Source: Ananas comosus (lineage: Eukaryota > Streptophyta > Magnoliopsida > Poales > Bromeliaceae). From it: DNA of 64,000 nt. The notes below the pieces were generated by a model that worked only from the letters and a program-made list of their open reading frames with translations, was not told the DNA's origin and did not search any database. This document shows, piece after piece, positions 28,247-64,000 of this stretch (the stretch's first letter is position 1; every line of letters begins with the position of its first letter). The position numbers were made by a program, and so were the translations under genes. Location of the stretch: assembly GCF_001540865.1 (NCBI RefSeq), contig NC_033642.1:3243365-3307364 (forward strand). Direction: 5' to 3'.

Positions 28247-28314
28247 AACTATTAGTAAGTCCTCTTTTGCAACACTTACACTTTAATACCACTAATTTAT
28301 AATAGGCTAAATTA

Positions 28315-33968: not shown

Positions 33969-35072
33969 GGATTTAGGCAATATTTTGACAGAGTTTCTTA
34001 GCTCCTTTACCTAACTTTTAAGCCATAAAATCATCTATCTATAGCCATCTATAGTTTTTTTTATAAAAAAAATAAGTTTTTACTGTCATTTCAGCAAATC
34101 AATCTCGAAATCGGGAATGACTCAAGAAACTAGCTAGGTGCTCAGTTTGCCCCAACGGCCAATCGAAAGCTGCAGTCACAATGGCTCTGTGGGTGATTAG
34201 AGAGTTTCTGTTGTGAAACTGAGCTCAATTCACAAAACTGGGCACCTGATTCCGGTTCGGGCATTCGCTTTTCTGTAGCAGCAGTTGTTGAAATCCAAAA
34301 TAGAGCGTGCTTAGCAAAACATGGCTCGAGCAGCAAAACCAAGTGCAAAAGTTTGTGCGCTCGGTTTATTTCCGGCTGATCGGGTTTCTCTGTCAGCCTT
34401 AAAGCTGTCGGTCGACAGGATTAACACCTTTTCTAAAATCACATTATCTCACTCATCTAATTTTGGATTCACACAAGTCAAAAGACGTTGGAAAGCTAAG
34501 TCGACAAAAAAATTAAATGATAAATGTTTACATTAATTTGATGTATGTTCTTAATTATCAACTCAGTTCCAACTTTAAGACTTTTTTAAAAATAGTATAT
34601 GAATTATATTTGGTTTGTTCCAGCATGTACCAAGTTATTTGTACTAATTTAGTACAAGAGTGCTTAGGTGGAGAAATAAAATGTGAATATTTGGGTCCAA
34701 CTCTATTATAAATATTATTACGGAGCTATTTAAAAGTAAGCCTACACAAGTTTTGAGCTTTCGTAAAATGCTCCGAGTAGCTTTTAAGAAATATGCCTCT
34801 TTCATTTGATTGTCTTGAGGAGTTTAATCCGTTTTAAATCTATGTCGTATTAAAATTAAGCTTAAATGAAATATTAGATCAAAATCACTATAGTTTGTTA
34901 TCATCAAAACCTATACAAAGTGTGAGGATTGAGATTTTTATTGTGTAATTTGGTGCTTTTCTATGGTGTTGTACTGGTATTTTAATTTTGGACTTTATTG
35001 GTTTAATTTTAGAAAAAAAGGAGTTTATTTTAAAGGTGCATGGTGACCGGTACTATTCACATAAGTTAATAG
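33000..35072. other. Intergenic spacer without recognisable gene
   Basis: No ORF or RNA gene could be supported. It contains a (GA)n microsatellite (33909-33962) and AT-rich sequence. Short T-rich and A-rich runs dominate. Confidence 0.5.
33909..33962. repeat. (GA)n microsatellite
   Basis: About 26 uninterrupted GA units. Confidence 0.97.
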
Positions 35073-35077
35073 TAATC

Positions 35078-35528
35078 TGTGACATCCTAATAGTCTCACA
35101 TCGGATAGGAATATCATTGGGTTTATAAGAGGACTTCACCCTAGTAATAATAATTAGGCTTAAGCATTTTGGGCCGGTGGTTAGGCCCAACGAATTGTTA
35201 TTGCTAGCGGGTCGGGTCGTTACATTTGGTATCAGAGCTAGTTCACCAGTCGGAAATGTGAGATGAGTCTTGGCTGAGCCAAGGTCGATGATTGACGGGC
35301 TAAGTCAGGGTCGGAAGGCTAGAAAGATAAGTCTCACATCATCTGGTGATCTTGGGCACATCGTATAGAAATGGGGCTGTCATTGGGTTTATAAGAGGAC
35401 TCCACCTTAGTAATAATAACTGGGCTTAAGCATTTTGGGCCACCTTAGTAATAATAACTGGGCTTAAGCATTTTGGGCCGGTGGTTGGGCCCAACGAGTT
35501 GTTATTGCTAGCGGGTCGGGTCGTTACA
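35078..35528 (+). mobile_element. TRIM with two LTRs and primer-binding site (451 bp)
   Basis: LTR1 (35078-35224, 147 bp) starts TGTGACATCC and ends GGGTCGTTACA. TTTGGTATCAGAGC follows, an initiator-Met tRNA primer-binding site. The interior is about 130 bp and non-coding. LTR2 ends GGGTCGTTACA at 35528. It lacks its first bases and the polypurine tract, and carries an internal duplication of about 39 bp (CTTAGTAATAATAACTGGGC twice). Flanks TAATC and TAATT match at four of five bases. Confidence 0.85.
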
Positions 35529-36000
35529 TAATTTGTATTTTATTTTGAGGCTTTGGCTTGAGGTTGGCTTCGGATGTAAATCGGACTCCATTTCGAACGA
35601 CCCAATAGATCATTTTCGATGGTTCAGCTATGCCGGAGGTGATGACACTGACTGATTTTACGTTCGATGCATGGTTTTCGAAAAAATCTACTTTTATCGC
35701 ATATTGGCCTTTTTCTTCTCGATGTTTTGCTTTTCAGAATTCTTCGGTGCTCCTTTTGTGTGAAAATTCATGAGATGGTGTCACTAGGCTTTTTACATGC
35801 AATGGTGAGTTTTCAGTATGAAACTCTAAGGTTGGAGGGTGCACAAAGTGTTAAAATGGAACACCTTGCGAAGAGGCTATCATTTTATGGGTGAAATTTT
35901 ACAGTTTTGGCAAGTAGAGGGATCTAAATGAAAGTAGACTCAGAGAGAATTTTATGTCTCAAATTTCATACATTTTGGGTTTATCTTTGCAAAAGGGCAC
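35529..36000. other. Unassigned spacer between TRIM and MITE
   Basis: No gene. A 75-codon open frame at 35667 has no recognisable domain. The tone of the sequence (TCGGATGTAAATCGG, GGAGGTGATGACACTGAC) resembles LTR interior DNA, but no terminus is visible. Confidence 0.35.
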
Positions 36001-37962
36001 TGAGGGCATGTTTGTTGTGACACCCCAATAATCCCACATCGGATGGGATGGGATTGTCATTGGGTTTATAAGAGACTTAGACACTAGTAATAATAACTGG
36101 GCTTAAGCATTTTGGGCCGGTGGTTGGGCCCAACGAGTTATTGTTGCTAGTGCGCTGGGTCGTTACATTTCGCACTCGCTGCTAGGTTTCAGCATGTCGG
36201 AGGCCGTGCTCACCTTTCGGAGCACTGTCGGCCACTGTGGCACGCGCACGAGCGATGCGAAAACCTGTGAAACAGCGTGCACGGCCCATAAAAGCTCAGA
36301 AATCACATAAAATGATGTGATTTTATGTATCGGTAAGGGCTTTTATGCTTTTTGCTTCGATGTAGCTGCTGTCGGCAGCATGTTTGGGCTGAGGATGACC
36401 TCTGGACTGATTGTCCAAGGCCCCAAACCTTTGCGGAAATCGAAAAGTGATTTCCGATGCGTTTCTCGGCGAAATCCACCGATAGAACACAATTTCGGTT
36501 CGGAATTCTTCCGACTGTACGTGGTGATTATTTGCGACGTCGCTGAGCCTTGTTGGCTGGTCACCCCCATCGTTTTGAAGGTTCGAAAACGACGGGTGAA
36601 CGACAGTGAAGTTCCGGTGCGATTTTCGGGACTTCCGGCATGTTCGGTAATCTGTTTTGGGAAACCGATTCCGTAGGGCTATGATTGGGGGTTGTGAGTT
36701 AGCGTTACATGTCAGTGGGTTAGATCCTAACCCGTTGGACCTTTCGTAGGTTCGGTTGCTCCGTCTCGGCAGTCGAGATACCAGTTTTATATACGTACAG
36801 GTGGGTACTTCGATCCAACGTCGGTACAGTGGTACACGCTCGGTGATGGTTTCTTACCCTTACTCTTCTATTGTTATTATTGCATAGTATATATTGAGCC
36901 TTGCACCCATGTTATTCCATTATACTCTACTTGTTGTTTGCATGCTTAATATCCTGAGTAGGAGTAGAGTGGTTCTATCTATGTGCGTATCTGTTGACCT
37001 GGTTGATCGATTCTTGTACTTCATATCAGTGACTTGGTAGGTCGATTCTTGTACTTCGTATCAGTGACCTGGTTGATCTATTTGGACATCTTTTACTTGT
37101 GCGACGCCGTGCAAATACAGGGGAGACTTTGTCCGTGTGAATAGTGGACTCCCTGTATTTGTGGCGGATCTGACATATCTCGTGGTCAGGTTTCAAAAAA
37201 AAAAAAAATAAAAAAAATAAATAAATTTTTCGTTGTGTTTTAATCTAAAAGGGACCTCGGGGCGTGACATTTGTTTTGGTGGAAGTGGGGTGGAAGTGGA
37301 GAGGAGGGAAGTGGTTTTCGCTTTAAACGACCACTTTCGTTGTTTGGTTCGTCGTAAAAAAGTTACGGTCGAAACTCGAGTTAACCTCAAACGGCGTAAT
37401 TGACTTAGCCCCATCGTAGGCCGAAGTCAATTACGGTGAAGAGAGGTGAAAAAAATAAAATAAAATAATATAATAAATAAAACTAGTTATATTTACATAT
37501 ATTTAATTATATTACTAATTATTTTTTTATTCCGTTAATATATCTAAAATATGATAAAAATTGATTAGTTAAGTTTTAATATTTTTTTATTTAGTTTGTG
37601 CATTTAAAATATGATAAAAATTGATTAATTACAGTATAATATTTTTTTATTTATAATTTATATTTGTATTACTAAATTATGTATAAAAAAATAATGTAAT
37701 TATTTAAATAAATTATTTAATTATATAAAATATAATATATATAATTTTAATTTATTAAAATATTATTATTTATATATAATTAAGCTTTAATTATACATTC
37801 CTATCAAACAAACAGCAAACTGATGAACTTCAAACTTATAACTACAAACAAACAGCGGAAAACGATTTTCAGTCACCGAACTCGCAGTTCAACCCAAAGT
37901 CCAGTTCAACCCATAATCCACTTCAATAACCCAAAGTCAGTTTCGTGAAACAACATCCCTGA
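36001..37962. mobile_element. PIF/Harbinger-like MITE split by a solo LTR
   Basis: The element (36004-37959) begins GGGCATGTTTGTTTTGG once the nested LTR is removed, and ends CAACATCCC, the inverse of GGGATGTTG. TGA is duplicated at 36001-36003 and 37960-37962; a 3-bp duplication suits the Harbinger superfamily. It contains the LTR at 36016-37269. Without it the MITE would be about 700 bp. The interior 37440-37800 is very AT-rich. Confidence 0.75.
36011..37274 (+). mobile_element. Solo LTR (family D, 1254 bp) with TTTGT target duplication
   Basis: The LTR is 36016-37269, from TGTGACACCCCAATAATCCC to GACCTCGGGGCGTGACA. TTTGT is duplicated at 36011-36015 and 37270-37274. Its first 152 bp (to GGGTCGTTACA at 36167) are nearly a complete TRIM LTR, while the rest is long-LTR-like: GGTGGGTACTTCGATCC at about 36801, short direct repeats at 37005-37080, and ATACAGGGGAGACTTTGTCC at about 37117. 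It appears chimeric. Confidence 0.8.
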
Positions 37963-40312: not shown

Positions 40313-40313
<1 letters not shown>

Positions 40314-40770
40314 GACACCGCCAATAATCTCCAACATCGGATTGGAAGGGGTCATGGTTTTAAAACTTAAAACACTAGTCATAATAACTGGGCCTTAAGC
40401 ATTTTTGAGCCGTGTGTTGGGCCCCAACGAGTTAATTGTTGCTATGGCTTGGTCGTTCATTTTGTATCAGAGCCGGTTTCACCAGCAAAGACATGTTGGA
40501 GTCTCGCTGGACAGCGGTCTGGATATGACGAGCTAGCGCAGACACGTCTCACATTATCCTGGTGATCTTGCTGTATTGTGATTGGTACTGACAAGGACGT
40601 CAGGGCTTCAACGGGGAGTCTGGACACCACCAATAAATCCACATCGGATAGAAATGGGATTGTCATATGGGTTTATAAGAGACTTAGACACTAGTAATAA
40701 ATAACTGGCTTAAGCATTTTGGCCGTTTGTTGGCCACACGAGTTAATTGTTGCTAGTGGCTGTCTTAACA
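40313..40770 (+). mobile_element. Complete TRIM element (458 bp)
   Basis: LTR1 is 40313-40459 (TGACACCGCCAATAATC ... GGTCGTTCA). The primer-binding site TTTTGTATCAGAGCC follows at 40460. The interior is non-coding, and a polypurine tract AACGGGGAGTC lies at 40610-40620. LTR2 is 40621-40770 (TGGACACCACCAATAAATCC ... TGTCTTAACA). All structural parts of a miniature LTR-retrotransposon are present and no protein is encoded. The target is TA microsatellite, so the duplication cannot be resolved. Confidence 0.87.
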
Positions 40771-42560: not shown

Positions 42561-43492
42561 GAGTCTGTCACGCCCCGAGCTCCGCCTATTTGGTCGGATT
42601 CGGGCTCGTCGACAGACCGCCGAACGGACAGAGCCTCCCCTGTACGTTCTAGGCGTCAACAATCTAAACAATGCAATACAAGAGGTTCCAAACAGGAACT
42701 GTAGCAAGTATGTAGATTGCATATGTATCGAAAACATAAAGTGCAAACTATGCTATTACAAGCATTCATCTCAGAGATTCTTTTACATTTACAATATTTT
42801 ACATTTACATAACCACATACGCTTTTAAGTTAATACGAAACTTATACAAATTACTACAATTTTGTTTCTTTCCATTTGAAGTCTGAACTTGACCTCTTCA
42901 GGGTGTTGCTATCTCAGTCTCAGTGGTGGGGCGCTATCTACGAAGCTACGCCCTGTCCTCGCGCCGCCGCGCCGCTCGCGTGTAACCTGTACCCCCAAAA
43001 CAACACGGGGGTGAGAACTATATAAATATAGTTCCCAGTGGGTACGGCCACCCAAGAGAAGAGCTCGACCCACCAGGTCCAAAGGAGGCAACAGTAGGTT
43101 AGTTCAACAAATAGATAGATAGATATTTAACGATGCAACAAATAGAACCATACCTTGCCTCGCTGCTATGCACTATGCAATACCTGTAAATCATGAAAGT
43201 AGCTTACTTGATTCTACTTTATATCATTAGCCATTCTTTACTTGTAGCCGTTTTATTCTTTCTTAGCTAGTTTCATTCATTAGCTATTTTCTTTATTCTT
43301 TTCTTTATGCTTTATTCTTTATTCTTACTGTACTCACTGGCGATTCTTTCCTAAGGTTACTTTACCTTAGCCATCTAGCCACTCGACTCGGTCTTGAGTC
43401 AATCAACCGCGGAGTACCGCGTCAAGTCAGGCTCGAGGTGAAGGACGTCTCACAACACCTCAGCCTTAAGTCCACGCGACACTAGGTCCATC

Positions 43493-43740
43493 ACAGGGAG
43501 AGGAGAACCGTCGATCCCCGTGACCCTAAGTCGCTCAAGCTCAACGGGCGAGGAGAACCGTCAAACCCGTTAGCTCCGGGAGAGGAGAACCGTCAATCCC
43601 GTTGAATCACTACCGGGAGAGGAGAACCGTCGATCCCGTAGTTTCGATTCACTTCACTTGTTTCATGGCATACCGGGAGAGGAGAACCGTCGATCCCGTT
43701 GAATCACTACTGGGAGAGGAGAACCGTCAATCCCGTAGTT
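43493..43740. repeat. Six-unit array of GGGAGAGGAGAACCGTC in LTR E
   Basis: Units occur near 43497, 43543, 43577, 43615, 43675 and 43712. Most have the form CGGGAGAGGAGAACCGTC followed by GATCCCG or AATCCCG, so each ends with CGGGA/TCCCG inverted termini. Spacing is 34-60 bp. Confidence 0.88.
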
Positions 43741-45109
43741 AAGATTCTATTTCTGCCATCATACCAATCCTAGGGATTCCGGAATCCATTTTCACAACTT
43801 AAGGGTTTACTCTTTTACCCTATGTCGACGACCTTTCTAGGTCTATTCTATTCACTTTCTAGTGGTCCTATTGCCACTATGATACACAACTTAGTTTACT
43901 TTTACTAAGTGGTTCTTTACATCATAACCTAGGTTCACTTACACTAGGTTTTATATACTTTCTCCTAGATCTCAACTCTAGGTTTACATACTCGACCTAG
44001 GTCCAATGACACTAGGTTAATTTCATGTCCAACCTATGTTTAATAACTTAGGTTCATTTCATTGCTCAACCTATGTTTAATAACTTAGGTTCATTTCACT
44101 CGATCTATATGTAACATCCTAGTTGTCCATGCCTAGGATTACAATTTATACGTTTCATATTCAACTTACACGACTTTAGTATGTTCGACATTCATATCTC
44201 ATTTATCATTCACGTGTTCATATACCGACAATCCTATGCATTTAGCATAAACTACAATGCATTCATATGCGTCTAGCATGTTTGTTCGTTATATGACAAT
44301 TATCATGTATCATCTAGCATGAGATTCACATTCACATATATATTTACTCTTATGCCTTTAGCATTCACTTTCATATATGTTTAGACATATACATCTAACA
44401 TTCATATTCATAGGCCTCTAGCATTCATATGAAGGTTTAATAACGTAGGTTTCATAGTTCACATGTTCTCATTTCCATAGTTGTCGGACATTCTATATAA
44501 CCTTGAGTTATCGACTCATAATCAATTTATATGCATCTAACTTGATTATTGCATATTAACTATCATATAGCATCAAGCATGTTTATCACTGAGTCATTAT
44601 GCATTCTCAAATAGTAGGTAACAACAACTAAAATAACATGATTTATGCATTCATATTATCAATTACAACCTACCCCGTATTCATAAACATTTATGTTCAT
44701 TAGCCATTCCGACAATTACATTTATCTATGCATCAAATGAAACCACGATTTACTTTGGCATGGAAGTGACCTAATCACTTCGGTAAAGCACAACCCACCT
44801 TTCTTTGATGCCGGAAAGGGAGAAATGCGCTTCTAGCGCTTTCCCGAGAACCGCGACCCGCGCTCGCGACTATCGACGCCGAAAATCTTCTTTTGGCGAT
44901 ATCTTCGCGTAGGAGCGACGAATTGCCGAACCGACTTCGCCAGCGTGTTTCTTTTACCCCCAATTTGGTTTGTACGCGGTCAATTTCACGTCAGGGCTTC
45001 TATCCTGCAAAAGTGCATTAGCGGGTCAGTTTTCAATACAAACCCATTTCAATGCAATTTCACTTTCAATGCAATTGCAATTTCACAATTACATCGAGTT
45101 CTTTCAACT

Positions 45110-45285
45110 CGTTCTTTCTCTTTTTCTTTCTTTCATTTTTCCTCTCTTCTATTTCTTTTTCTTTCTTTCTTCCTTACTTGCTTTCTTTCTTTTCTTTCTT
45201 TCTTTCTTTCTTTCTTTTCTTCCTTTCTTTCTTTTCCCTGCTGCAGTTTCTTTCTTTTCTTTCCTTCTTTCTTTCTTCCCTGCAG
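45110..45285. repeat. Pyrimidine-rich (CTTT)n tract
   Basis: A long C/T-only strand with CTTTCTTT runs. It is candidate triplex-forming DNA. Confidence 0.9.
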
Positions 45286-45605
45286 CTGAAGCTACTACTG
45301 CTGCTGAAGCTCCTGCTGCTGCTGCTCACTGCCTGCTGCTGAAGCTGCTGCTGCTACTCCCTGCGCAAGCTGCTGAAGCAGCTGCTGCTGACTGCTGCTG
45401 AAGCAGCAGCTGCTGCTGATTGCTTGCTCTGCTGCTGCTGCTGCCTGCTTGCCCTGCTGCTGCTGACTGCTCAGCAGCAGGCTGAGCTGCTGTTGCTACT
45501 CAGCTCAGCAGGGCTGAGCTGCTGATGCTGCTGCTGCTGTTATTGCAGCTGCTGCTGATGCTAACTGCTGAAGCTACTGCTGCTACAACCAGTAGCAGCA
45601 GGGAG
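45285..45605. repeat. CTG/CAG trinucleotide-rich block
   Basis: A dense, imperfect run of CTGCTGCTG with interspersed AGCAGC, so both CTG and CAG occur on one strand and can pair intramolecularly. Apparent poly-Leu/Ala frames here are an artefact of the repeat. Confidence 0.9.
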
Positions 45606-46673
45606 AGATGAGAGGGAGAGAGATGCAGGGAGAGGTTAAACTTACCTCTTTTCATCTTCTTTCTTTTCTCTTCTTCTTCTTCTTCCTCTCTTTTCTTTTC
45701 TTCTCTTCTTTCCTCCTTCTCTCTCTCTACGTAGACAGAATGGAGAGGTGGCAGAGGGGATAAGGATGGAGGGGAGCCTGGCTGGTTAGTGGAATTCCAC
45801 TAAACCTGTCCAAGTTACCAAAATGCCCCTCGACTTATCCGTTTCGCGACACGGATCAAATACCTTTCGCAGGCCCTTCCGAAAGTCCGATTGAGCTCAA
45901 ATTTGACAGGAATGTTCGTTTTTACTTAACAAGTCCACTGAAATTTTAACATTTCAGTTTCGACCCCGTTTGGTCACTGCGAACTGTCCCGAACTGTAAT
46001 CTTTATCAGATAACTTCCAGATGCTATTTCTCTCTCTACAGGTGTCAGAAAAATCTGAAACTTCAAATCTAGCCTCATAAAAATGTTCCTGACATCTCTG
46101 CCAATTTTCATAATTTTCTGACACTGTGCATTTTCTGCTAATTTTCTCAGTCCCGTTCTTTACAGAAAATTCTAAAGTTTCCGTTTTCACACCGATTTCA
46201 CCCAAACATGTCCAAAAGATACCAAGGGACCTTCACAAGCTACCAATCCAATTTGGAAGCAATTCCTTTGCATTTTGACATTATTGGAGCCGAATTAGCA
46301 ATAGAATCAGCTCCAATTTCATTATACGGCAGAAATTTCTCCTTTTTGCACTACCACTTCGCATTGAACACTTCAAAACCCTTTGAAAGCACACCCTTGG
46401 CTTTTCCAAAACTTCACAATTGATTCGGAGATACCACAATTTATCCTCTCGCCTTACTTTAATTCTTTTAATCAAAGTTAGCGTCGGAAATCCGAAATTC
46501 TCTTTATATTTCGTTTCGCGCCCAATTTGCGCCGAAACACTTATTTATCTCCAGAATTCTTTCACACGCATCACAAATCACTCGGGGATGATGTCCAACT
46601 AGCTCAATCCTCACTTTGACCCTCTAGGTCAAAGTTGACATCGCAACTCCAAGTTTCCATATGTTACAGAGTC

Positions 46674-47700
46674 GGTGCGACAATCGGGCGATCTTTCGGT
46701 GACCGTGGAACGAGATCCGAAAATCTGATTGTTCGCTTGTTTGGATTCACTTGGAATCATAGCTTTTGTAATTAGCGAGTTTGAGCTAACTACGGTTTTG
46801 GATGGGCCATTGCATAGGTCTGGACTCTAGTGGGAACCATCTGCAAATAGGCGACGACCCGGGTATTTCTTATGGTAGAGGTGGGTACTTCGACCCGAAG
46901 TCAGTAAAGTGGTGACTAATTAGTAATTTCTTTCCTTTTATATCTTCTTTGATTTGAATAATATATACATTCTTGTCTACTGAGCCTTTGCGCCTCACTT
47001 GTTTTCTGTTGTCTACGCTACGGTTTATTCTCATCTATGGTATCATGATCTAGTTGTAGAGTAGCATTGATTATGATTAATTGTGATGATTTGATTACAG
47101 TAGTTGGTGACATTTGTATTCATTACACAGTGATATTGTATATTCGTTGCATGATGATCTTTTGTATCTCGTACATGGTGACTTGATTATATAGACCTTA
47201 CAGGTTAGTGACATGGTGACATTCATATTCATTACACAGTGATATTGGATATCCGTTGCATGATGACTTTTCGTATCTCATACACGGTACTTGATTATAT
47301 AGGCCTTATAGGTTAGTGACATTGTGACATTCGTATTCATTACACAGTGATATTGTATATCCGTTACATGATGATTTTTCATATCTCTACACGGTGACTT
47401 GATTATATAGACCTTATATGTCAGTGACATTGTGACATTCGTATTCATTACATAGTGATATTGTATACCCGTAGTATGATGACTTTTCATATCTCGTACA
47501 TGGTGACGTGATTATATAGATCTTATAGGTCAGTGACATGGTGAAATTTTCTTCTGGAATAGTAGACCTAATTTGGTCGGACATTAGTAGATTACTTTTT
47601 CGGTTAGTTGCCATTGTTGGCCATTGAGCATATTGCATCGATTACCACAGCTCATGAGCATCTTCACGTACACCAGCGATCTGATCCACCGCAAGAGGTA
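46674..47700 (+). mobile_element. Family D-like long LTR, right half
   Basis: It resumes the LTR interrupted at 42561: GGTGGGTACTTCGACCCG (46881), GAGCCTTTGCGCCTCAC, then a four-unit tandem array. It lacks the GGGGCGTGACA end, so it is truncated before 47800. Confidence 0.5.
47100..47540. repeat. Four-unit tandem repeat, about 108 bp each
   Basis: Units contain GACATTCGTATTCATTACAC, AGTGATATTGTATATCCG, ATGATGACTTTTC and CTTGATTATATAG, in the same order four times. Divergence between units is a few percent to about 10% by eye. Confidence 0.92.
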
Positions 47701-48277: not shown

Positions 48278-51200
48278 TGCTATGTCACGCCCCAAGCCCG
48301 CCTATTTGGTTGGATTCGGGCACGCTAATAGACCGCCGAACGGACAGGGTTTCCCCTGTACTGCGGATAGAGTAGTCTCCCCTGTACGTCCAAGGCGTCA
48401 CAATCCATACAATGTGCGAGGTTCCAACCAGGAACAGCATACAAACAAAAATTGCATAAGGAAGGTATAAAAAACATAAACACTATGCTATTATAAGCAT
48501 TCAACTCACATACATTTTACATCTTTAATTCTTTTTAGCTTCCAAATACAATCAGTCTTAACATAATTATTACAACTTGGTTCTTTTCATCACTATATCC
48601 CTAAGCTAAGCCGACATAGGGTATTGCTATCTCTGCTCTCGGTGGTAGGGCACTATTTATGGAGCTACGCCATTTTCTCACGCCGCCACGCCGCTTGCGT
48701 GTGAACCTAAAACCTCCAAAACCACGTAGGGTGAGAACTATATAAATATAGTTCCCAGTGGGTATGGCCACCCAAGGAAAGAGCTCGACCCACAAGGTCC
48801 AAAGGAGGCATTCAAACATGTTAGTCCAATAGATATATACATAACATCATATAATTCACGCTCATGCCTCACAACAAGCATCTATGCAAATCATGCAACT
48901 TATGCAAGTAATTCACTTAATATACTTTTTATCATTTGTCATTCTTTATTATTACTCGCAACTCTTTATTACTAAGCATTCTTTACTAGCAATTCTTTAG
49001 CATTAGCCGTTCTTTACTCCTAGCTGTTCTTTACTATTTGCTATTCTTTAGCATTAGCCGTTCTTTATTTCTTGTTATTAGCCACACTATGCTCATTTGC
49101 CATTCTTTCCTAAGGTTACCTTTACCTTAGCCAACTATGCCACTCGACTCTGTCTTGAGTCAATCAATCGCGGAAAAGCCGCGCTCAGTCAGGCTCGAGG
49201 TGAAAGAACTATCACATGCACCTCAGCCTTTAATCCACAAACCACATCGCCTAACGGGTCGCGAAGAACTACGTACACCCGTGGTCAGGGATCCCCCGAT
49301 GGGAGAGGAACATGCCGCATACACCCGCAGTCAAGATCCCTGATAGGGAGAGGAACATGCCACATTCACCCTAGTGCTCACAATCCTCGAAGTTCTTCTG
49401 GTGGGAGAGGAACATGCCACATGTACCCGCGGCCAAGAACTATCGAGCTCACAAGTCCTGGGATTCCGGAATCCACTTTACATAGCTTAAGGGTTGGTCT
49501 TACCCTATAATGTCGGCCTATCTAGGTCCAAGTCATTACTCAACCTAAGTTTAATACATTAGGTCCAATGTCACTATGTTCGTAGCCTAGGTTCTATAAC
49601 ACTAGGTCCGATGTTCTTTACTACCTAGGTTCGTTTGGCTCTAGATTCAATACCATTCATGTCATAACCTAGGTTCTATACTACTGGGTCTCAATGCCAC
49701 TCATCATTCACCTATGTTCAATAACACTAGGTTTCAATGCCATTCACAATACTTGTCATCCTAGTTATTCACACTTAGGATTATTAATTGACATGCCACT
49801 CAATGTACTTATTTTCCTAGTTATCCATATCCAGGATGTAGTTTACATGTCCATGCTCTCCAATGTCGAGTTCTCTATCAACCTAGAGTTATCGACCCAA
49901 GTTCACATTTATATGAATCTAGCATTTATCTCATGCATTCATTTATTAGCATACATCATGCATTCACAATTAACATATATCTTATACATTCACTTAGCAT
50001 CTAGTTCATGTATTCACTTAGCATATACTCTATGCATTCATTTAACATCTAACTCATGCATCCATTTAGCATGTATCTTATGTGTTCACTACAAGCATCT
50101 ATCTCATGCCTTCGTTTATTAGCCTCTACTTCATGCATTCATATAGTATCTCATGGTAGGTAACAACATCAAGCATAATATGATTTAGGCATTTATATTA
50201 TCAAGTACAACCTACAAACTATACATGCATCAACAACATTCACGCTTTACTTTGGCTTGGAAGTGACCTAATCACTTCGGTGAAGCACAACCCACCTTTT
50301 AAGCTTCCTAATTGCTTGTAGTCACTTGCAATTAGGCCAACTACTTGGACTTCCAAGCTTTCCTTGCCCTATACAAGAAATCCTTTGTTACCATTTTTGA
50401 ACCACTAAATGATCTCTCTACTTGAAATCAAATAGCCTCATATGATTCCTAGCCCCCAATTAGGTTTCCAAAGGGTTAAAATATTTTTAGAACCCTTCAC
50501 CAAGAAACCCCTCATTTTAACCTAGGGTTTTCCAAACTTATGATAAAACCCTAATCCATATGCTAACCTCTACCATTTGTAGCTTAGATTAGTCTAGGAT
50601 TTGCTAGAAATCCATTTGGAAGGTTTAAATCCAAAATCCTAGCTCAAACCCTAAAATCCCAATTCTAGCCCTAGGTTTCTCATTTCTCCAAATACATCCA
50701 AAAATCCATGGAGAACAAGTTTAGAATACACTAGGGATCTACAAAACACCATTCATGAAGGATTTATCCAAAAATCACAACACTTACCAAAATACGCACG
50801 CCGAGTCGAAAGCACGCCGCTCCACCGGGCGCACGAGGACTCAATTCGTCGCTTCGTACGCGTTCCCGAGCTCGATCTCCACCAAGATCTTCAATTTGGA
50901 GAGGAGGAAAAAGAGAGGGAGAGAGATGAGCTCCTCCTCTCTTTCTCTCTCCGTATCTCAGTGTGCGTATGTGAGTTTTGGGCGGAGGGGAAGGGGTGGG
51001 CACCGCTAATTATAAGCCCATAGTGAAATTACACTTTTGCCCCTCAAAAATAGCGTTCTGGGAGGCTGCGTACCGGTACTCGGGCTCGCGTCACCGGTAC
51101 CAGGCCAGTCCAGTACCGGTACCCAATTTTTCATCACCGATACACAGTACAAATTCTGCACTTATGCGAATTTCAGCTTTTGGAGCCCGTTTTCAAGTCT

Positions 51201-51318
51201 AGTTTGCTCCGAATACACTCAAACGCTCTCCAAACTTCGCTGGAACTTATTTAATAGCTTTTTAAGCTAGTTCCCACCAAAATTTCATAACCGTAGAAGT
51301 TCGGTATATTACATGCTA
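48278..51318 (-). mobile_element. Solo LTR (family F, 3031 bp) with TGCTA target duplication
   Basis: The LTR is 48283-51313. On the minus strand it starts TGTAATATACCGAACTTC and ends GGGCTTGGGGCGTGACA. TGCTA is duplicated at 48278-48282 and 51314-51318. Modules are a GTACCGGTAC array (51065-51135), a repeated GGGAGAGGAACATGCC block (49250-49440), the hairpin (48731-48762) and a terminal GGACAG-type hairpin near 48345. Its 3' kilobase resembles family E. The 137-codon frame at 49097 is repeat-derived, not a gene. Confidence 0.93.
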
Positions 51319-52033
51319 AGTTGAAGCTTAGGCCACAAGCAAGTCTCTTCTTCAAGCTCAAGCTCCCCTCCAAGCCTTAAATGCAAGCACCCGTGGAGAA
51401 GATGAAGAGAAGAGAAAGAAAATCCAAGTATTAGAGGAGTTTGGGGGAGAAAAATTCAAAAGAAAGAAAGAAACCTACCTTTCTCCTTCTCTTTCTCTTT
51501 CACTTCTCCAAATGAGAGAAGAAAGATAAGGTAAAGTGGGTTTACACCCACTTGTACAATATCTCAAAAAACTCCTCTAATTTCAGAAATTACAAATTGT
51601 ACGAAAAACAATTCTGTACCATTGAGTACCGGTACGTGAATTGGAGTACCGGTACACAACTCATTCGTTCCAGTACTCGGGTCTAATCCCGCAAAACCCG
51701 AACGTTAGAATTTTCGATTTCTAATGCGTTCTGGTACCTGCTCAAATCAGTACCGGTGCAACTTGGTCCAGTATCGGTACTCAGCCGAGTTTCGCAAAAC
51801 TCGAGAGTTGAGCCAACCCTTATGCAGCAGGGTTCTGGTACCCAGACTTCGTACCGGTATACAATAGCCAAAAGTGCAGTTTTGCAGATTTTGGCTTTCG
51901 GAGTCCATTTTCACGCTAACTAAGCTCCGAAAATGTTCCCAAGCTCTCCAAATTCAATAAAAACTTTTAGAATAGTATAAAATACTATTCTCTCACTAGA
52001 ACTCCGAAATTTGCTAAAGTTCAGTGCACTACA
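51319..52033 (-). mobile_element. Family B-like LTR, right part with LTR 5' end
   Basis: On the minus strand it starts TGTAGTGCACTGAACTTTAG, like family B. It carries GTACCGGTAC-type palindromes at 51625-51860, inside the expected promoter-proximal zone, then CT-rich leader DNA. It is truncated by the break near 47810 on the far side. Confidence 0.75.
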
Positions 52034-53408: not shown

Positions 53409-55549
53409 TGGAGTGTCACGCCCCGCGACCGCCTATTTGGTCGGTTCGGATACGTCTACAGACGCCGAACGGACAGAACCTCCCCTGTCCGCCCAAGGCT
53501 CCACAACAACAAAGCATGTATAAAGCATTTGCCCAGGAATAATTGCACTATACATGGCTTGCACGAGGGCAAGCAACAATCAAGCAAGTGAAAGTATTAC
53601 TGCTATTATAACCACACATGTATCTTGATTTCATTTAACCAAATACAAGCCTACTATAATTTACATTCATTTTTCCCCAAATACATCACACATCCATTTA
53701 CATCATTTATACATATCCATCAACATTTCACTATTCATCATAAACCAAAAGATGAAATGAAGGTACAACTAATGCACGGGTGTCCACTACCTAGGGCGCT
53801 ATGCCCTTGCCGCGATCCTCAACCACCTCGCTCGCCCCCGAATCTGTAAAATGGTGGGGTGAGAACTACAAGAAGTTTCCAGTGGGTTCGGCTGCCGACC
53901 CCGCCGACTTTCCCACTAGGTCTAACCAGACATAAGTAGAAGAGAACAGATAGATAGATAGATAGCCATTTCTAACCAAATGTAGCTACTATACCTGAAT
54001 AAGAATAATAACCTATATATATGATGCTCATGATGCATGCCGATTGCCATTGTCAATACCCAATCCTCTTGGCTAACCCATAGGTTTAGCCCCGAAACTC
54101 ACCAACCAAATCCCTACTATGGGGGAGATACTCGCTACGACTCGACGGGACCGTCTTCTAGGGAGATACTCGCTACGACCCAATAATGACCACTCCGGAG
54201 CTCATCGCTCAAGGGGGAGCGATCGCCCTCAAGCATAAGACTATAGGTGAGTATGATCCAATCCACAACCATGAGGATGCCATGTCTACTAATGCCACAA
54301 CACACAAAGTGTTCCATTCACTAGCATTCAATGCCACAAGGTGCTATTTCAATCATTTGTCACAATGTCACCATGTTTTCTACTTTGGCTAGGTTCATGT
54401 CCCAATTCATACATCTATAGGGTTCATAAATGTCCAATGTTCCATTGCCAACTCATATGCATCTTTATACTAAAAGCATGCAAGAAGTACCAATATATTA
54501 CCATTTAACCCTACAATATATGAATCCTACATATACACATATATGCTCAAATGGTGACTTAGACATAAAGAGAAATCCAACTGTTTCGGATAGCACCACC
54601 CACCTCGTAGGGATGCTGGAGTACTAGAACCCAAGTTCCACGATTTATGGTCGCCGCTTTCTCTCGACCCTATGCTAACGAAGCCAAAATGAGATTTTTC
54701 CCCAACAACTTGACGTAGACTCGTCGAAACTTCGATCCGAATCTCCCAACGCATCAGTTTATACTCCAATTAGGACTACAGGAGATCAAACCCATGTTAG
54801 ATCTCATACTTTACAAAACCCCATTTTTGACCAAAGGGTTTTCATCATCCATAAATACCAAATATTTTTGGGAATTCATGAGGTAATCCAACCTAGCATT
54901 TTCTAGGAACATTAACTAGAAGAGAATTAACCAAACCTTAGTTCACAATTACATAAACTCACCTCAACTCCTAGCTTCTTCCTCCACTCAAGCACAAGAG
55001 CCAAGCTTCACCCCTAAGCAAGCTTTCTCCTCCACCAAGCTCCACCCTTGGAGCAAACCCTAGAGAGAGAAGAAAAGAAAGGGGAAAGAGTGGAGAGTGA
55101 GAGAAGGTTCTAGAGAGAGAAAGAAAACTTTTCTCTTTGGTCTCATACAAAGGGAAATGAGAACTAAGGGCTTAGAACCCTTATATCAAGCCTCCCCATT
55201 GACATTTGCACCAAGGCCCCTCACAAATTTACTATTCTGGACCAACCAGAATTTTTGCGGGTACCGGGTCCGGACCTTGCACTCAGAGTCCAGACCCCGA
55301 GAGCAATTTCTCACAGTTTCGGAGCTAGGGTACGGACTTTGCTGCTAGGGTCCGCACCCCGAGAGCAAAAACACTCTCAATCAACTCGAAACTTTCCAAT
55401 TTTCTCTCCAAGGTCCCAAGTACCTATCCAATCCATTCCGAAGCATTCAGAACATCTCACGGACCTCATCATCTCGACCACCGCCACACTTCGGTCAATT
55501 TGACTGAAGTTCGGTACAATCTATTGGGGATTCGGTATGTTACATGGAG
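53409..55549 (-). mobile_element. Solo LTR (family G, 2131 bp) with TGGAG target duplication
   Basis: The LTR is 53414-55544. On the minus strand it starts TGTAACATACCGAATCCCC and ends GCGGTCGCGGGGCGTGACA. TGGAG is duplicated exactly at 53409-53413 and 55545-55549. Its promoter-proximal palindromes are GGTCCGGACC-type (55255-55370), different from those in A and B. The hairpin is at 53860-53890 and GAACGGACAGAACC at 53465 forms the terminal hairpin. (GATA)n is at 53950. Confidence 0.92.
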
Positions 55550-58359: not shown

Positions 58360-58834
58360 TATAACACACTAGACTTTTGCAAATTGCAAGGTTCAAGTAT
58401 TTGATTTGTGTTTCGAGCTTTTCCACATTTTTTGGAGGGTCATAGACAGTGTTCCGACCTATGGCTCGCATCCCGAGAATTGAGGGTTAAAACTTTGCAC
58501 CAAAACCCTAAAAGACGGATTTTTGGTCTACTCTCGGGTTTGCCTCAGCAGGGCTGTGTACCGGTACAGCCTTGATGGTTGTACCGGAACATATTTTGTA
58601 CCGGTACACCTTGATGGTTGTACCGGCACAAATGTGATTTTTCAGCCAACCCGAGCCTCGGGTTTCCGCGTACAGGATTTTGTACCAGTACACTTTCTCG
58701 TGTACCGATACACTTTGCTAGATTTCGAAATGGCAGTTTTTGAGGGGTGTTTTTGGAATTGTAGTTATACTACAAATAACCCCACGCCCCCTTGGTGTTC
58801 TCTGAGCTTGGGAACAGAGGAGAGAGAGGTAAGG
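58360..58834 (+). mobile_element. Family B-like LTR 5' part, interrupted by gypsy element
   Basis: It starts TATAACACACTAGAC (family B TGTAACACACTGAAC). It carries six GTACCGGTACA-type palindromes at 58555-58715, and CTACAAATAACCCC as a possible promoter. It stops where the A-family LTR begins at 58835. Its remainder may lie beyond the window on the other side of that element. Confidence 0.75.
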
Positions 58835-61359
58835 AGTAATATACCGAAACTTCGGTAAACGAATATTGAACTTTAGTCAAAATGACCAAAGTGCGAGGTT
58901 GGTACGCTTCCGAAAGGCCGAAGGCGTAAAAAAGGGTAAAAGTGCATTGTTGGGGGTTTTCGAGAGCTAAAGAATAAAAAATCTGCTTACTGCAGCTTTT
59001 GAGCTCTCGGGGACCGGTCCCTGGTGGGAGAAACTGGTCCCCAAATGTGAAAAATCTCAGAGATGGAAAATCGGCTAAGTCCCAGAAAACCAGCTCTCGG
59101 GAACCGGTCCCTGGCGGGAGAGATCGGTCACCGAGAGACCGGTCCCTCAGGAGAGATCGGTTGCATCATGCGTGAGCCCTGCTGGCCGCGGGGAGAGCTC
59201 TCTGGGATCGGTCCGATGCTCGAGAGACCAGTCCCCAGGCCCGAAAAATGCCCAGTCTGGGTAGTGTAGCAGGATTAAAGTTGAGGGGCCTAAATGCAAA
59301 AGTGACATGAGTGGGCTATGTATGAGGGGTTATGGGACATTTCCTCTCATTCTCTCCCTCTCACACACTCTCTTTTCTCTTTCTCTCTCTCTAGAAGGCA
59401 AGGAGAAGAAGAAAGAAAGAAAAAGAAGGAGAAAGAAGAATGAAAGGAAAAGAAAGGGACGGAAGGTGAAGAAGAAGGCAAGGGAGTGGAGCTACTTCCT
59501 CTTCTTCCTCCTTGGTGCAAGAGAGTGAAGCTTTTAGAGGTAAGCTTCAACCTCTTTCATTGTAGAACCCTAAGTAGGGTTTTGATAGAGATAAAAATGG
59601 TTTTAGTAGAATCTCTTGAGTATTTGAAGCTTTCTTTTACTTCCCTATGAGATCAAAACCTAGGGTTTTGATATATGTTGAAGCTAGGGCACCCAAATTG
59701 GGGTTTTTGCTTGTGAGGATTTTAAAGCCAAATTGACCCTCTCGAAACCTAATTGGGGGTATTTCCAACGCATTAGTGCGCTCGGTTTAACGTTACGAAA
59801 AACTTATGCGAAGTTATAAGCAAAAAGGGTCTAATTTGGCTTCATTTTGCCGCAGGTAGCGAACTTGACGGCTAAAATCCCGAGAAAAATCGCCGTAGCA
59901 CCTTAGCAAGCCTACGAGGTGGGTGGTGCTTTCGAAACTTGTTTAAATTCCTTTTATATCTAATGTGTCACTTTCTTGAGCATATGAGCAAATGTTTGTG
60001 CATGCATTGTAGGGTAATTGAGATGACGTTTATGTGAATGTTTGCATGTTGTGAGTACAAATGCATTATGAGATGGTTGTGAACCTAAGAACCCTATATA
60101 TGCATGAGATGTAACATGAAAACCTAGTTGAGGCAAAAGAACAAAGGTGACACTATGACATATAGATCGAGTGGCATTAGTAAATGAAAAGAACACTAGA
60201 GTTAGTGTGTGGCATCAAAGAGAACAAGTGTGGCATTAAAGAATGAAAGCTAGAGTTAGCATCAAAAGTATGGCATTAAAGAATGAAAGCTAGAGTTAGC
60301 AACAAATGTAGCATAGAGAACACTAGAGTTAGTGTAATGACATGGTTGAAAACAAAGAATGCAAAGAACTTGAGATTGAGACACAATGACATATAACCTT
60401 AGAGCTAAGGGTCATTTGTGCATAATTTCCTTAGATTTAAGGAACGGATTGAACAGAACATCCTTTGAGTTAAGGATTTGATCATACTCGCTATAAGTCC
60501 TTGCTCGAGGGTGGTCGCTCCCCCTCGGGCGATGCGCTCTGTAGTTTGTCATCACTGGGTTGGTGCTGTTCCCCAGAGGATGGTCCTAACGGGAGGAAGC
60601 TGAGGGCCCGTTAAATGGGTTTTTGAGTGGGTGAGTTAATGAGGCGAAACCCCCCGGTTAGCCATGAGATTGAACGAAAGAGATTAAACGAAAGATCAAA
60701 GAACTTGCATTCTTCATGAGTTTTATATTGAGCATCTTTATTGATAGCATTGTTCAGGCATATTAGCTTCATAGCTGCATATGTATAGTTGGTTACTTAT
60801 CTTATTCTTTCTATTATGTCCGAGTTAGACCTAGTGGGAAAGTCGGTGAGATTGGGGTTGAACCCACTGGGAACTTCGTTGTAGTTCTTACCCTACTATT
60901 TCCACAGAGCCGGGACCGAGTGAGCTGGCGAGCGATCGCGGTAAAGGTATCGTGTCGTAGACAGTGATTACCAAAGTCGAGCTTTACATTTTGTTAGTAG
61001 CATACCTTATATCATCCTTTGTATTCGATGATTTGAGATGTTAAAGAAAAGAATGTAATGTGTTATTATGAGCAAATGTGATGTAAAAAGAAATGATGAA
61101 AAGCAATGTAAAGAATCATGAATGTAAATGGTTTAAAGTAAATCATTCTGCGTGTATGTTGTTAGTTTCATTTCTTTCACTCATGGCTATTGCTTACCCT
61201 CGTGTAAGCCATTGTGTATGTTTCCGCTTGTGCATTCTCTTTGCTTGAATTGTACATGTGTTGAGCCTTCGACGGACAGGGGAGACTCTGTCCGTTCGGC
61301 GTCTGTTCGACGTGCCCGGGCCTGCCAAAGGGATCGGTCTCGGGGCGTGACAGATATGG

Positions 61360-61371
61360 TGGTATCAGAGC
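61360..61371 (+). other. Primer-binding site for initiator-Met tRNA
   Basis: TGGTATCAGAGC starts 7 bases after the LTR end (61352). This confirms the LTR boundary and orientation. Confidence 0.92.
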
Positions 61372-61679: not shown

Positions 61680-62715
61680 ATGGCACCTCGTGGTCGACCG
61701 CAAACAAGGTCAATGCCGGAGTAGCCAAATGCGGCGCCCGAGCAATCCGGAGCAACCGGCGACGGTGAGCTTCGGGAGCAAGTGGCCGCGCTTATTGGCG
61801 TAGTGCGGCAACAAGCGGAGTCTGTTCAACGTGAAGGGGAGCAGATTCAACGGCTCCTGGAGGCTTTGGAGCGTCAGCAAGCGGTGGCGGCCCAGGTGGG
61901 TGCCGAGCATGTCGCGCCCCCTGTGGTGCTGCCGAGTGTAGTCGATGAAGCGGCGGCAGCGGCAGCTGTGTCAGTCACGGTAGTACCGGCCGAATCGGGA
62001 ACCTCAAATCTCGATAGTGCGGCAGTAGAGGCAGAGCGGGAGCACGCGTTGGCGGCTCTTATTCAGTTCCAGAAGTTCAGCCCGCCTGTCTTTGAAGGTG
62101 GAGTGGTGGAGCCAGCGGTAGTGGAGTCGTGGATCGACTCAATGGAAACGCTCTTCGAGAACTTGAATACCTCGGAGAAGGACAAAGTGTACCTCGCCAC
62201 CCATTGTCTCGAGAAGGCGGCGAAGGTGTGGTGGAAACGAGTTAAGCGGGATCAATCTACTGATCTTCCGCCTATGCTTTGGGAGGAGTTCAAGAGAGCG
62301 GTGTTCGCGAACTACTTCCCCGACACGGTAAAGCGGAGACTACAAGAGAAGTTTCGCAGGTTAAGGCAAGGTGATCGATCGGTGGGGGAATATGAGCAAG
62401 AGTTCTCTCACATCATCGACTGCGTCCCGGATATTGTTCGAGATGACCGGGACCGGACTGATTGGTTCTTACGAGGACTCCAGCTGAGAATCTATGAGAA
62501 TGTGCAAATTCTTAAGTTGACGACCTTTGCGGAGGTCTTCGATCGAGCCTTATGGGCGGAGCACGGTAGTGCCTACGCGCGAGAGGAGCGTGAGGCTATG
62601 GCCGAATCAAGGGATAAAGGCAAGAAGCGAGTAGCGGGCGGTGCCGGGGGCCGGCCGAATACAAAGAAACCCCCTCGGTATCCCCGACAACAGTCGAAGA
62701 GCTGGAACCACCTCG
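61680..62715 (+). pseudogene. gypsy gag (capsid) with premature stop and frameshift
   Basis: The ATG at 61680 (MAPRGRPQTRSMPE) is followed by a TAG at 61722-61724. The same frame then stays open and contains the Retrotrans_gag capsid domain: FSPPVFEGGVVEPAVVESWI, ATHCLEKAAKVWWKRV, WEEFKRAVFANYFP and DWFLRGLQLRIYENV. A basic Lys/Arg/Gly linker follows at about 62600-62690. The zinc knuckle is only readable in another frame, so an indel lies near 62700-62715. Gag would form the virus-like particle around element RNA. The downstream part of the 413-codon open frame is out of register and not meaningful. Confidence 0.9.
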
Positions 62716-62716
62716 G

Positions 62717-64000
62717 TGCGTCATATGTGGCGGAGAGCACTGAGTGTCGTCTTGCTGATAATGCGACGGCAAATGTTACAAGTGTGGCCAACCGGGACAT
62801 CTTATCCGGGAGTGCCCGAGCTGGAAGTCGTCTACGCCGACGGCGGCATCAGCACCGTCTACCCCGAGACAGCTTCCGGGGTTGCCACCAGCGATGTCGG
62901 CTGGACGCGCATCATCACCGCGTCAGCCGGAGGGATCACGAGTCCCTAGTTGACGGATTTTCGCCACTCAGGTGGAGGAGCAGCCTGCAGCACCAGATGA
63001 CGTTGTGGCAGGTATTATTCTGATTAATGGCACTAGAGCTAGAGCTTTATTTGATACGGGTGCATCTCATTCATTCATTGGTGCATCCTTTGCGAGAACT
63101 CATGGCATCAAAATAGTGCATAATTAGGACTATTGGTGGGTCAATGGGCCGGAACATTCGTTCAGAGTGCACGAGGAGTGCTTGGCTTGTCCAGTTCAGA
63201 TAGGTGAATGGATTATTCCAATTGACTTAGTGGTGCTAGATAGAATGTGGGGATTTGATATAATCTTGGGGACCAATTGGCTCTCCAAGTATTATGCAGT
63301 CATAGATTGCGAGAGTAAGATGATCACGTTTCGTGAGCCTAACCAAGAGGAGTTGGTGTATCGCGCGTGTAAAAGCAAGCGCTTCGCGGCGTCCATATCG
63401 GCGACAAGGGCGAAAAAGATAATCAAAGGTGGATGCAAAGCCTATTTGGCAACCATGGTAGATACTCAAAGGGAGTACTCAGAGTTAGGGAATATCTGAG
63501 TTGCATGTGAGTTTCCGGATGTATTTTCGGCGGAGTTACCGGGATTGCCACCGGACCGGGAGGTTGAGTTTATCATTGACTTGATTCCTGGGGCGGCGCT
63601 AATCTCGAAGGCTCCGTATAGAATGACACCGGTGGAACTAGTGGAGTTAAAAGCGCAACTACAAGACCTGCTCGATAAAGGTTTTGTGAGGCCAAGCGTG
63701 TCACCATGGGGAGCTCCGGTGCTATTTGTGAAAAAGAAGGATGGTGCACTTTGACTCTGCGTAGACTATCGCGAGTTGAACAAAGTGACGATTAAGAACA
63801 AGCACCCGTTGCCAAGGATTGACGATTTGTTCGATCAGTTGCAAGGGTCAAAGGTATATTCGAAGATTGATCTCTAATCGGGGTATCATCAACTAAAGAT
63901 TAGATCGAAGGATGTGCATGAAACGGCGTACCGTACGCGGTATGGCCATTATGAGTTCAGGGTAATGCCTTTGGGCTTACTAACGCCCCGGCAGCATTTA
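62717..64000 (+). pseudogene. gypsy zinc knuckle, protease and reverse transcriptase, several stops
   Basis: All of this is in one frame, shifted from gag. Zinc knuckles: a degenerate CVICGGEH piece at 62717, then an intact CYKCGQPGHLIREC at 62774 (C-x2-C-x4-H-x4-C). Aspartic protease: LFDTGASHSFIG with the active-site triplet at 63053. The linker includes ILGTNWLSKYYAVIDC. Reverse transcriptase begins near 63545: [57 protein letters not shown], then SGYHQLKI and [19 protein letters not shown]. In-frame stops lie at 63124, 63497, 63752 and near 63876, plus stops in the first knuckle. The window ends before YVDD, RNase H and integrase, so chromovirus membership cannot be tested. Confidence 0.92.

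Follow-up and report, generated by a model that had tools for sequence, protein, structure and literature searches.

The DNA analyzed here (the window) is a 64-kb stretch of the pineapple genome (Ananas comosus; RefSeq assembly GCF_001540865.1, contig NC_033642.1, positions 3,243,365 to 3,307,364 of the forward strand). Self-comparison and inspection of repeat ends mapped nine retrotransposon long terminal repeats (LTRs) whose 5′ end is present. They come from a handful of families, are mostly old solo copies, and are called B1, B2, B3, F1, F2, A1, A2, G1, and C1 below. Eight of the nine contain an array of four to eight short dyads centered on CCGG, 163 to 408 bp inside the LTR (offsets are counted from the LTR 5′ end throughout). 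A preliminary description of this DNA had listed eight clusters of four to eight degenerate near-palindromes about 155 to 400 bp into the LTRs; all eight are present, in eight LTRs, at the places and on the strands described. The arrays hold 48 units in total (B1, 8; B2, 6; B3, 6; F1, 8; F2, 4; A1, 5; A2, 7; G1, 4). The automatic list of units with at most three mismatches had 52 entries, from which four three-mismatch rows lying off the run of units were removed by hand (F2 offsets 305 and 449; G1 offsets 220 and 302), while five three-mismatch units were retained (F2 171, A1 219 and 290, and A2 197 and 287).

The arrays of the B and F LTRs consist of GTACCGGTAC-like units. B1, a solo LTR on the minus strand (14952 to 17475; ends TGTAACACAC...GGGCGTGACA, target duplication CCAAC on both sides), has eight units at 17079 to 17313 (offsets 163, 183, 245, 267, 285, 307, 368, and 388) and the TATA-like word CTATATATA from offset 454 (about 17022). 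B2, a plus-strand solo LTR (29471 to 31956; target duplication TCTAC) with 77% identity to B1 over 2620 aligned columns, has six units at 29668 to 29823 (offsets 198, 220, 238, 260, 324, and 344); a TATA box placed at 29878 by the preliminary description lies just downstream as CTATAAATA, from 29880. Only the 5′ part of B3 is left (58360 to 58834, plus strand; 69% identity to B2 over 483 columns), with six units at 58558 to 58711 (offsets 199, 222, 239, 261, 323, and 343) and TACAAATA at 58771. The 5′ part of F1 (51314 to 52033, minus strand) contains eight units at 51626 to 51860 (offsets 174, 193, 254, 275, 297, 358, 379, and 399). F1 is interrupted by F2, a minus-strand solo LTR (48283 to 51313; target duplication TAGCA) with four units at 51070 to 51143 (offsets 171, 192, 214, and 235) and TTATAAT at about 51015; judging by 65% likeness to B1 and B2, F1 likely continues at 48274 to 47850.

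In A1, a minus-strand solo LTR (25265 to 27797; target duplication AATAA), five GGACCGGTCC-like units lie at 27499 to 27620 (offsets 178, 198, 219, 270, and 290), with TTATAAT at about 27417. A2 (58835 to 61352, plus strand) is the 5′ LTR of an element with a primer-binding site and gag; its seven GGACCGGTCC-like units lie at 59011 to 59234 (offsets 177, 197, 267, 287, 302, 371, and 391), followed by a degenerate TATA-like word at about 59316. G1, a minus-strand solo LTR (53414 to 55544; target duplication CTCCA), has four GGTCCGGACC-like units at 55267 to 55358 (offsets 187, 207, 249, and 269) and ATATAAG at about 55186. The ninth LTR, C1, is a minus-strand solo LTR of the same superfamily (42566 to 46668; target duplication GACTC) that lacks a CCGG array: its offsets 100 to 1000 hold no unit within two mismatches of the B/F, A, or G consensus, and it shows no excess of dyads. 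C1 is 4.1 kb long, contains extended microsatellites (TTCT and CTG) at 45112 to 45584, and offers a natural contrast for asking what takes the place of the array.

All six complete solo LTRs (B1, B2, F2, A1, G1, and C1) are flanked by a perfect 5-bp target duplication, and the first two bases of the TG...CA ends are altered in B2 (CG), A2 (AG), and B3 (TA). The 5′ tips of A1, F2, and G1 read TGTAAYATACCGAA, from which the A2 tip (58835 to 58860) differs in its first base only; within it, TACCGAAACTTCGGTA forms an inverted repeat whose TACCG half-site resembles that of the B array. Two insertions of related LTR elements are nested: F2 in F1, and A2 in B3, about 60 bp past the B3 TATA-like word. 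The interval 58555 to 59240 given in the preliminary description covers two LTRs, B3 being cut by A2 at 58834/58835. One LTR holding both arrays was rejected, as likeness to the B type stops at 58835, where an LTR of type A begins. Insertion-site palindromes reported for nested LTR elements (PMC6911290) were also rejected as a source of the arrays, since they are target sites and not LTR contents.

The A2 element is the only one in which a Ty3-type gag lies behind an LTR and primer site. Its primer-binding site TGGTATCAGAGC (61360 to 61371, plus strand) is an exact match to the primer-site pattern, and its Ty3/gypsy gag reading frame (61725 to 63023, plus strand) matches Retrotrans_gag (E = 5.5e-20) and Ty3_capsid (E = 7.6e-9). 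Relatives of this gag were scored among the 7993 candidates with the most words in common, and 45 of the 47 listed name Ananas comosus or its variety bracteatus. The window covers the first 2.6 kb of the element interior, and no reverse transcriptase or integrase motif was found in window frames of at least 35 amino acids. Likeness to A2 is clear for A1, G1, C1, and F2; B1 and B2 are linked to it through short stretches and common ends only. The 3′ ends of all seven LTRs that retain one are GGGCGTGACA or GGGCGTAACA and match the type A attachment (att) end of U5 (the unique 5′ region), with GGG at −10 to −8, which has been described for Del elements (PMC4029996). The sequence features of these LTRs thus fit the Del (Tekay) lineage of Ty3/gypsy, a lineage that by itself accounts for 16.4% of the assembled pineapple sequence (PMC6022998). 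One more superfamily LTR is represented at window bases 1 to about 889 by its 3′ part, the 5′ part lying outside.

The dyads are far more frequent than expected by chance. All 14 copies of TACCGGTA in the window lie inside arrays, and GTACCGGTAC with at most one mismatch occurs 27 times, compared with about 0.5 per dinucleotide shuffle (30 shuffles). Without any motif being specified, offsets 150 to 420 of the eight LTRs contain 17 perfect 10-bp dyads (2.05 ± 1.43 in 500 shuffles; maximum, 7) and 74 near-dyads, in which at least four of five pairs match (31.3 ± 5.5; maximum, 49). The same interval of C1 has 1 perfect dyad and 5 near-dyads versus 0.42 and 5.2 in shuffles. Thirteen of the 17 perfect dyads are CCGG centered; A1 contributes none of these, as its two perfect dyads have other centers, one being GAGAGCTCTC, which is present in A2 also. 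Taken LTR by LTR, the motif-free test is uneven: the numbers of shuffles out of 500 that reached the observed perfect and near-dyad counts, respectively, were 77 and 54 for G1, 11 and 56 for A2, 10 and 49 for F2, 1 and 20 for B2, 33 and 0 for B1, 13 and 2 for A1, 1 and 3 for B3, and 8 and 0 for F1, so that the near-dyad count is weak in G1, A2, and F2. Scanning with the family consensuses at two or fewer mismatches, which were derived from the same data, all eight LTRs stand out, with 3 to 8 units each versus 0.07 to 0.33 expected. The excess is also positional: among perfect dyads with a G+C content of at least 40%, 15 fall in offsets 101 to 400 of the nine LTRs (2.7 kb) and 15 in the remaining bins to offset 3000 (16.4 kb).

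Family-specific letters surround a common center. The consensus units are GTACCGGTAC in B and F, GGACCGGTCC in A, and GGTCCGGACC in G, and their half-sites (TACCG/CGGTA, GACCG/CGGTC, and GTCCG/CGGAC, respectively) overlap in a CCGG core common to all; B and A differ by one change per half-site, and A and G by one more. The earlier claim of the same position and symmetry upstream of the promoter, with a different half-site in each family, is therefore upheld, but the half-sites differ in single-base steps while their core stays the same, and C1 lacks an array. CCGG is intact in 28 of the 48 units; 18 of the other 20 carry a single C-to-T or G-to-A change, split evenly between the inner CpG and the outer C or G (9 each), and the last 2 carry transversions. 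This pattern fits what is expected from decay of CCGG methylated at CG and CHG positions. Some of these changes are common to aligned units of related LTRs; thus, they represent fewer than 18 events. The core decay counts in favor of a rival reading in which the arrays are mainly an interface with silencing, where CCGG-rich DNA and hairpin-forming RNA of the U3 (unique 3′) region are targeted by host small RNAs and methylation and the letters change to escape homology-based silencing, as a moving target. Since not all of the changes are independent, they count for less than their number, and the decay pattern does not separate a silencing target from a site escaping silencing. The observed-to-expected CpG ratio in offsets 150 to 420 is near 1 in B1 (1.08), B2 (1.09), B3 (0.97), and F1 (1.09) and is 0.74 in F2, 0.82 in A1, 0.71 in A2, and 0.59 in G1; array-free C1 has a ratio of 1.19.

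Beyond the preliminary description, the analysis revealed that most of the dyads can be paired and that the arrays, taken together, fit a lattice of about 20.6 bp. By hand, 44 of the 48 units were paired into 22 doublets, 20 of which are spaced 20 to 22 bp from center to center (20 bp in 12 doublets, 21 bp in 3, and 22 bp in 5; the other two measure 19 and 23 bp). All seven A and G doublets are paired at 20 bp. Using the 43 units with two or fewer mismatches in the eight arrays, the 20.6-bp lattice, which corresponds to approximately two helical turns, scored 34.0 versus 15.4 ± 1.8 for random placement of the same number of units over the same span, and none of 1000 placements equaled it; with one LTR per group (B1, F2, A2, and G1), none of 400 reached the observed score. 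Distances between motif-free near-dyad centers were raised at 19 to 23 bp (19 versus 1.6 in shuffles), but neighboring classes were raised too (8 to 18 bp, 16 versus 3.7; 24 to 38 bp, 27 versus 4.5), so that this test shows clustering more than phase. The inner and outer half-sites of doublets were equally well preserved, with 21 and 23 mismatches. The periodicity itself might reflect a nucleosome-positioning or DNA-shape signal with a period of about 10.3 bp and no factor site, and periods of 10.3 and 10.2 bp are among the 12 best; however, such a signal requires neither 10-bp dyads nor family-specific letters, which makes it a most improbable explanation.

The arrays also keep a regular distance from both the LTR end and the putative promoter. 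The first unit lies 163 to 199 bp into the LTR in all eight, and the end of the last unit precedes the TATA-like word by 57, 57, 60, and 55 bp in B1, B2, B3, and F2, respectively, and by 82, 82, and 81 bp in A1, A2, and G1.

Units are more alike between LTRs than the spacers that separate them. In all seven LTR pairs compared, aligned units were 86 to 93% identical versus 61 to 84% for aligned spacers, with one-sided Fisher P values of 0.0001 for B1-B3, 0.00002 for B2-B3, 0.004 for B1-F1, and 0.005 for B2-F1. The units are conserved although CpG-rich sites should decay faster. Within arrays, units are 72 to 90% alike, whereas the adjoining 8 bp are 21 to 46% alike, and the likeness of units is thus not explained by fresh tandem copying alone. 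Copying has nonetheless left traces, since a duplication of about 40 bp is visible in B3 (with a tandem row of period 22 at 58557 to 58630), and A2 contains an extra module, roughly 90 bp long, that A1 lacks. These traces and the 20.6-bp lattice would suit a functionless by-product of tandem duplication, in which an old 20- or 40-bp repeat in U3 supplied both spacing and letters. Such an origin seems quite unlikely given the divergent flanks and the fact that units outlast spacers in 7/7 pairs; in addition, neutral copies have no reason to remain symmetric. The arrays seem to grow by doublets, after which the dyads are kept as the spacers drift. As a sign of selection, the conservation of units over spacers offers support, short of proof.

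Repeated dyads can fold in RNA, and U3 is transcribed at the 3′ end of the element RNA too, so that the same palindromes can feed small-RNA silencing. Seven of ten array stretches had folding z scores at or below −2.3 relative to shuffles (B3, −5.7; F2, −4.3; F1, −3.7; A2 5′ part, −3.4; B2, −3.3; B1 5′ part, −2.7; G1, −2.3; overall range, −0.45 to −5.73). The other three folded no better than shuffles (A1, −0.45; A2 3′ part, −0.77; B1 3′ part, −1.53), and the array-free C1 stretch scored −2.41, so that folding often accompanies repeated dyads as a side effect and is no clean mark. Selection of the doublet as a hairpin was rejected, as pairing between units (0.805) equals the symmetry of each unit by itself (0.805); the ends of doublet spacers pair at 0.33 versus about 0.25 expected. 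In the literature, palindrome clusters of Sireviruses are reported as small-RNA hotspots (PMC5311732, PMC10760457), and Cruz et al. (2014, PMC4029996) proposed that the Del 5′ CpG island is a moving target, both of which lend some weight to a silencing interface. Nevertheless, that interface leaves the pairing distance and the TATA distance unexplained, and its folding evidence is undercut by the three stretches that fold no better than shuffles, by C1, and by the equality of the two pairing values; we consider it doubtful as the main explanation, although silencing can act on top of another role.

The arrays are probably U3 enhancers of Del-type Ty3/gypsy LTRs that serve a dimeric host factor recognizing CGG half-sites, a reading drawn from the position before a TATA-like word, the dyad symmetry, the pairing, and the conservation. 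Each 10-bp dyad would present two CGG-type half-sites and be bound by a dimeric DNA-binding protein of the host; dyads paired 20 to 22 bp apart would place two dimers on the same face of the DNA, where they may bind jointly; and dimers bound at a fixed distance ahead of the TATA box would promote transcription of the element. The arrays would gain and lose whole doublets, and half-sites would shift in their outer letters from family to family while the core and pairing stay constant. The preliminary description had likewise suggested a dimeric factor, with a specificity that changed between families, or else sites escaping silencing, and this interpretation is partly supported. The geometry suits a dimeric factor in its mostly 20- to 22-bp pairs, its similar TATA distance, and its units that outlast their spacers, while binding by a host protein, activation, any change of specificity or escape from silencing, and the cause of the letter drift are what we infer from these sequence features.

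Several points weigh against an enhancer array of this kind. Four units are unpaired (A1 219, A2 302, and F1 297 and 358), and some neighboring units are separated by 15, 17, or 18 bp. For A2 and G1 by themselves the lattice lacks significance (74 of 400 placements reach the score), and it is thus a result for B and F; three of the seven A and G doublets contain a three-mismatch unit. No TATA-like word was found downstream of the F1 array. The TATA-like search words were picked after the sequences had been read, the degenerate word of A2 was accepted because it aligns with that of A1, and the equal distances within B and within A are partly due to common descent. In the comparison of units and spacers, B1-B2 (P = 0.10), F1-F2 (P = 0.06), and A1-A2 (P = 0.08) are not significant; units had been chosen for their likeness to a consensus, and columns in which a unit faced a non-unit were scored as spacer, both of which favor units, and the LTR pairs overlap in their members. 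In B1-B2, the stretch ahead of the array is nearly as conserved as the compared units (0.897 versus 0.917). C1 is an LTR of the superfamily that manages without an array. Finally, we know of no plant factor with such a site; ACCGGT is absent from the 12 papers listed, of 510 matches, in one literature search for it, which says little either way. SPL-type GTAC sites were rejected as the target of a common factor, as GTAC is in the B/F consensus and absent from those of A and G.

The closest known counterparts are the RM boxes of Sireviruses (Bousios et al. 2010, PMC2829016), which resemble the arrays here in being short palindromes that are repeated within the upper LTR half and precede a TATA box (a conserved one in Sireviruses), with a CGG/CCG signature and letters that differ per element. 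That position is shared by eight of the nine LTRs here, F1 being without a TATA-like word. RM boxes start 200 to 400 bp into the LTR, compared with 163 to 199 bp for the arrays, and number at least eight per element (linker plus 3′ LTR) and 3 to 14 per 3′ LTR; here there are four to eight per LTR, and eight is reached only in B1 and F1, among copies that have decayed. The half-sites of 13 RMs (CGGAC, 5; CGGTC, 4; CGGTA, CGGCA, and CGGCT, 1 each; none, 1) include all three found here (CGGTA, CGGTC, and CGGAC), a post hoc match whose chance value, for 3/3 within the five CGGNN words of 12 RMs, is 5/16 cubed, or 0.03. The host element and the half-site orientation differ. RM boxes sit in Ty1/copia elements, whereas the arrays sit in Ty3/gypsy, as indicated by the A2 gag and the Del-type ends. 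The CGG...CCG of RM boxes faces inward, while here the half-sites are back to back, with CCG and CGG overlapping in CCGG, and inward-facing CGGTAC...GTACCG occurs only between neighboring units. RM clusters also form CpG islands, and on this point the arrays are mixed, with CpG ratios near 1 in B1, B2, B3, and F1, lower ratios in the other four, and 1.19 in array-free C1. The pairing at 20 to 22 bp was measured here; in the RM paper, "spacing" and "helical" occur in the reference list only and "bp apart" is absent. No common binding factor had been identified for RM boxes in that paper. By analogy, the arrays may work like RM boxes, yet they are not members of that group, given their Ty3/gypsy host and back-to-back half-sites. 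A single class of dimeric plant proteins reading CGG(A/T)(A/C) half-sites could conceivably have been adopted independently by Sireviruses and Del, both of which would alter outer letters and half-site arrangement in an arms race with host silencing while keeping the core and promoter-proximal place (and, in Del, the two-turn pairing), although we hold this broader scenario to be speculative and rather unlikely.

Within the Del lineage, the 5′ CpG island of Cruz et al. (2014, PMC4029996) likewise lies in the 5′ part of the LTR, varies in length and sequence by group, and was put forward as a possible moving target. The arrays are candidate contents of this variable island, but the CpG ratio is near 1 in B1, B2, B3, and F1 only and reaches 1.19 in C1, which has no array. 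The text of that paper contains no word beginning with "palindrom" or "tandem" and no "inverted repeat," and Ananas is not among its ten genomes. Among the matches listed from open-license literature, none was found to describe palindromes of this sort for Del LTRs, and no title among the 20 matches listed (of 40) for GTACCGGTAC concerned a plant LTR. A tug of war has been proposed for Copia elements and presumed elsewhere, and a clear peak of such structures is generally missing in maize Ty3 elements (PMC10760457), which makes a Ty3 example worth noting; that source also points to other elements whose cis-regions are arrayed and in some cases palindromic, and one of these elements may be Ty3/gypsy. 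The LTRs analyzed here suggest that promoter arrays of palindromes like those of Sireviruses also occur outside that group. In the fungus Podospora, LTR subfamilies of crapaud (PMC10787394) similarly concentrate their variation in U3 before the TATA box, and the text of that paper has no word beginning with "palindrom."

Family-specific short noncoding arrays that change together are also known from VANDAL transposons, as in VANDAL21 (Hosaka et al. 2017, PMC5735166; PMC10398659), and raise the idea that an element-encoded protein of the VANC kind binds the array of its own family and removes silencing, with motif and protein coevolving. Unlike the present case, however, VANDALs are DNA transposons whose element-encoded protein binds same-orientation motifs (YAGTATTAY), and the VANC21 motifs often lie in tandem repeats and are not dyads (PMC5735166). 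No candidate gene was present among frames of at least 150 amino acids, which is weak evidence because only about 350 bp separate the A2 primer site from gag and the element continues beyond the window. Overall, we judge an anti-silencing system of this type very unlikely. The steady pairing with changing letters makes the 30-bp doublet a concrete probe for a host factor, and the arrays offer a clean test of binding-site drift versus escape from silencing.

Further features of the window were recorded. A second word, GCTCTCGGG, is shared by several LTRs (17252, 27621, 55296, 55358, 59003, and 59093); in A1, A2, B1, and G1 it stands immediately ahead of a doublet or between two, and each of its six exact window copies is within or adjoining an array. 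The CTCGGG core of this word is found 35 times versus 11 expected, in many cases outside arrays. A separate repeat family, at 35066 to 36201, 40313 to 40762, and 27797 to 28258, matches the primer-site word exactly at 35227 and with one mismatch at 40462 and is perhaps a small non-autonomous LTR element. A 108-bp tandem repeat of about four copies spans 47105 to 47548, and a minus-strand fragment at 1002 to 1694 carries a MuDR-type transposase DNA-binding domain (PF03108, E = 1.1e-12).

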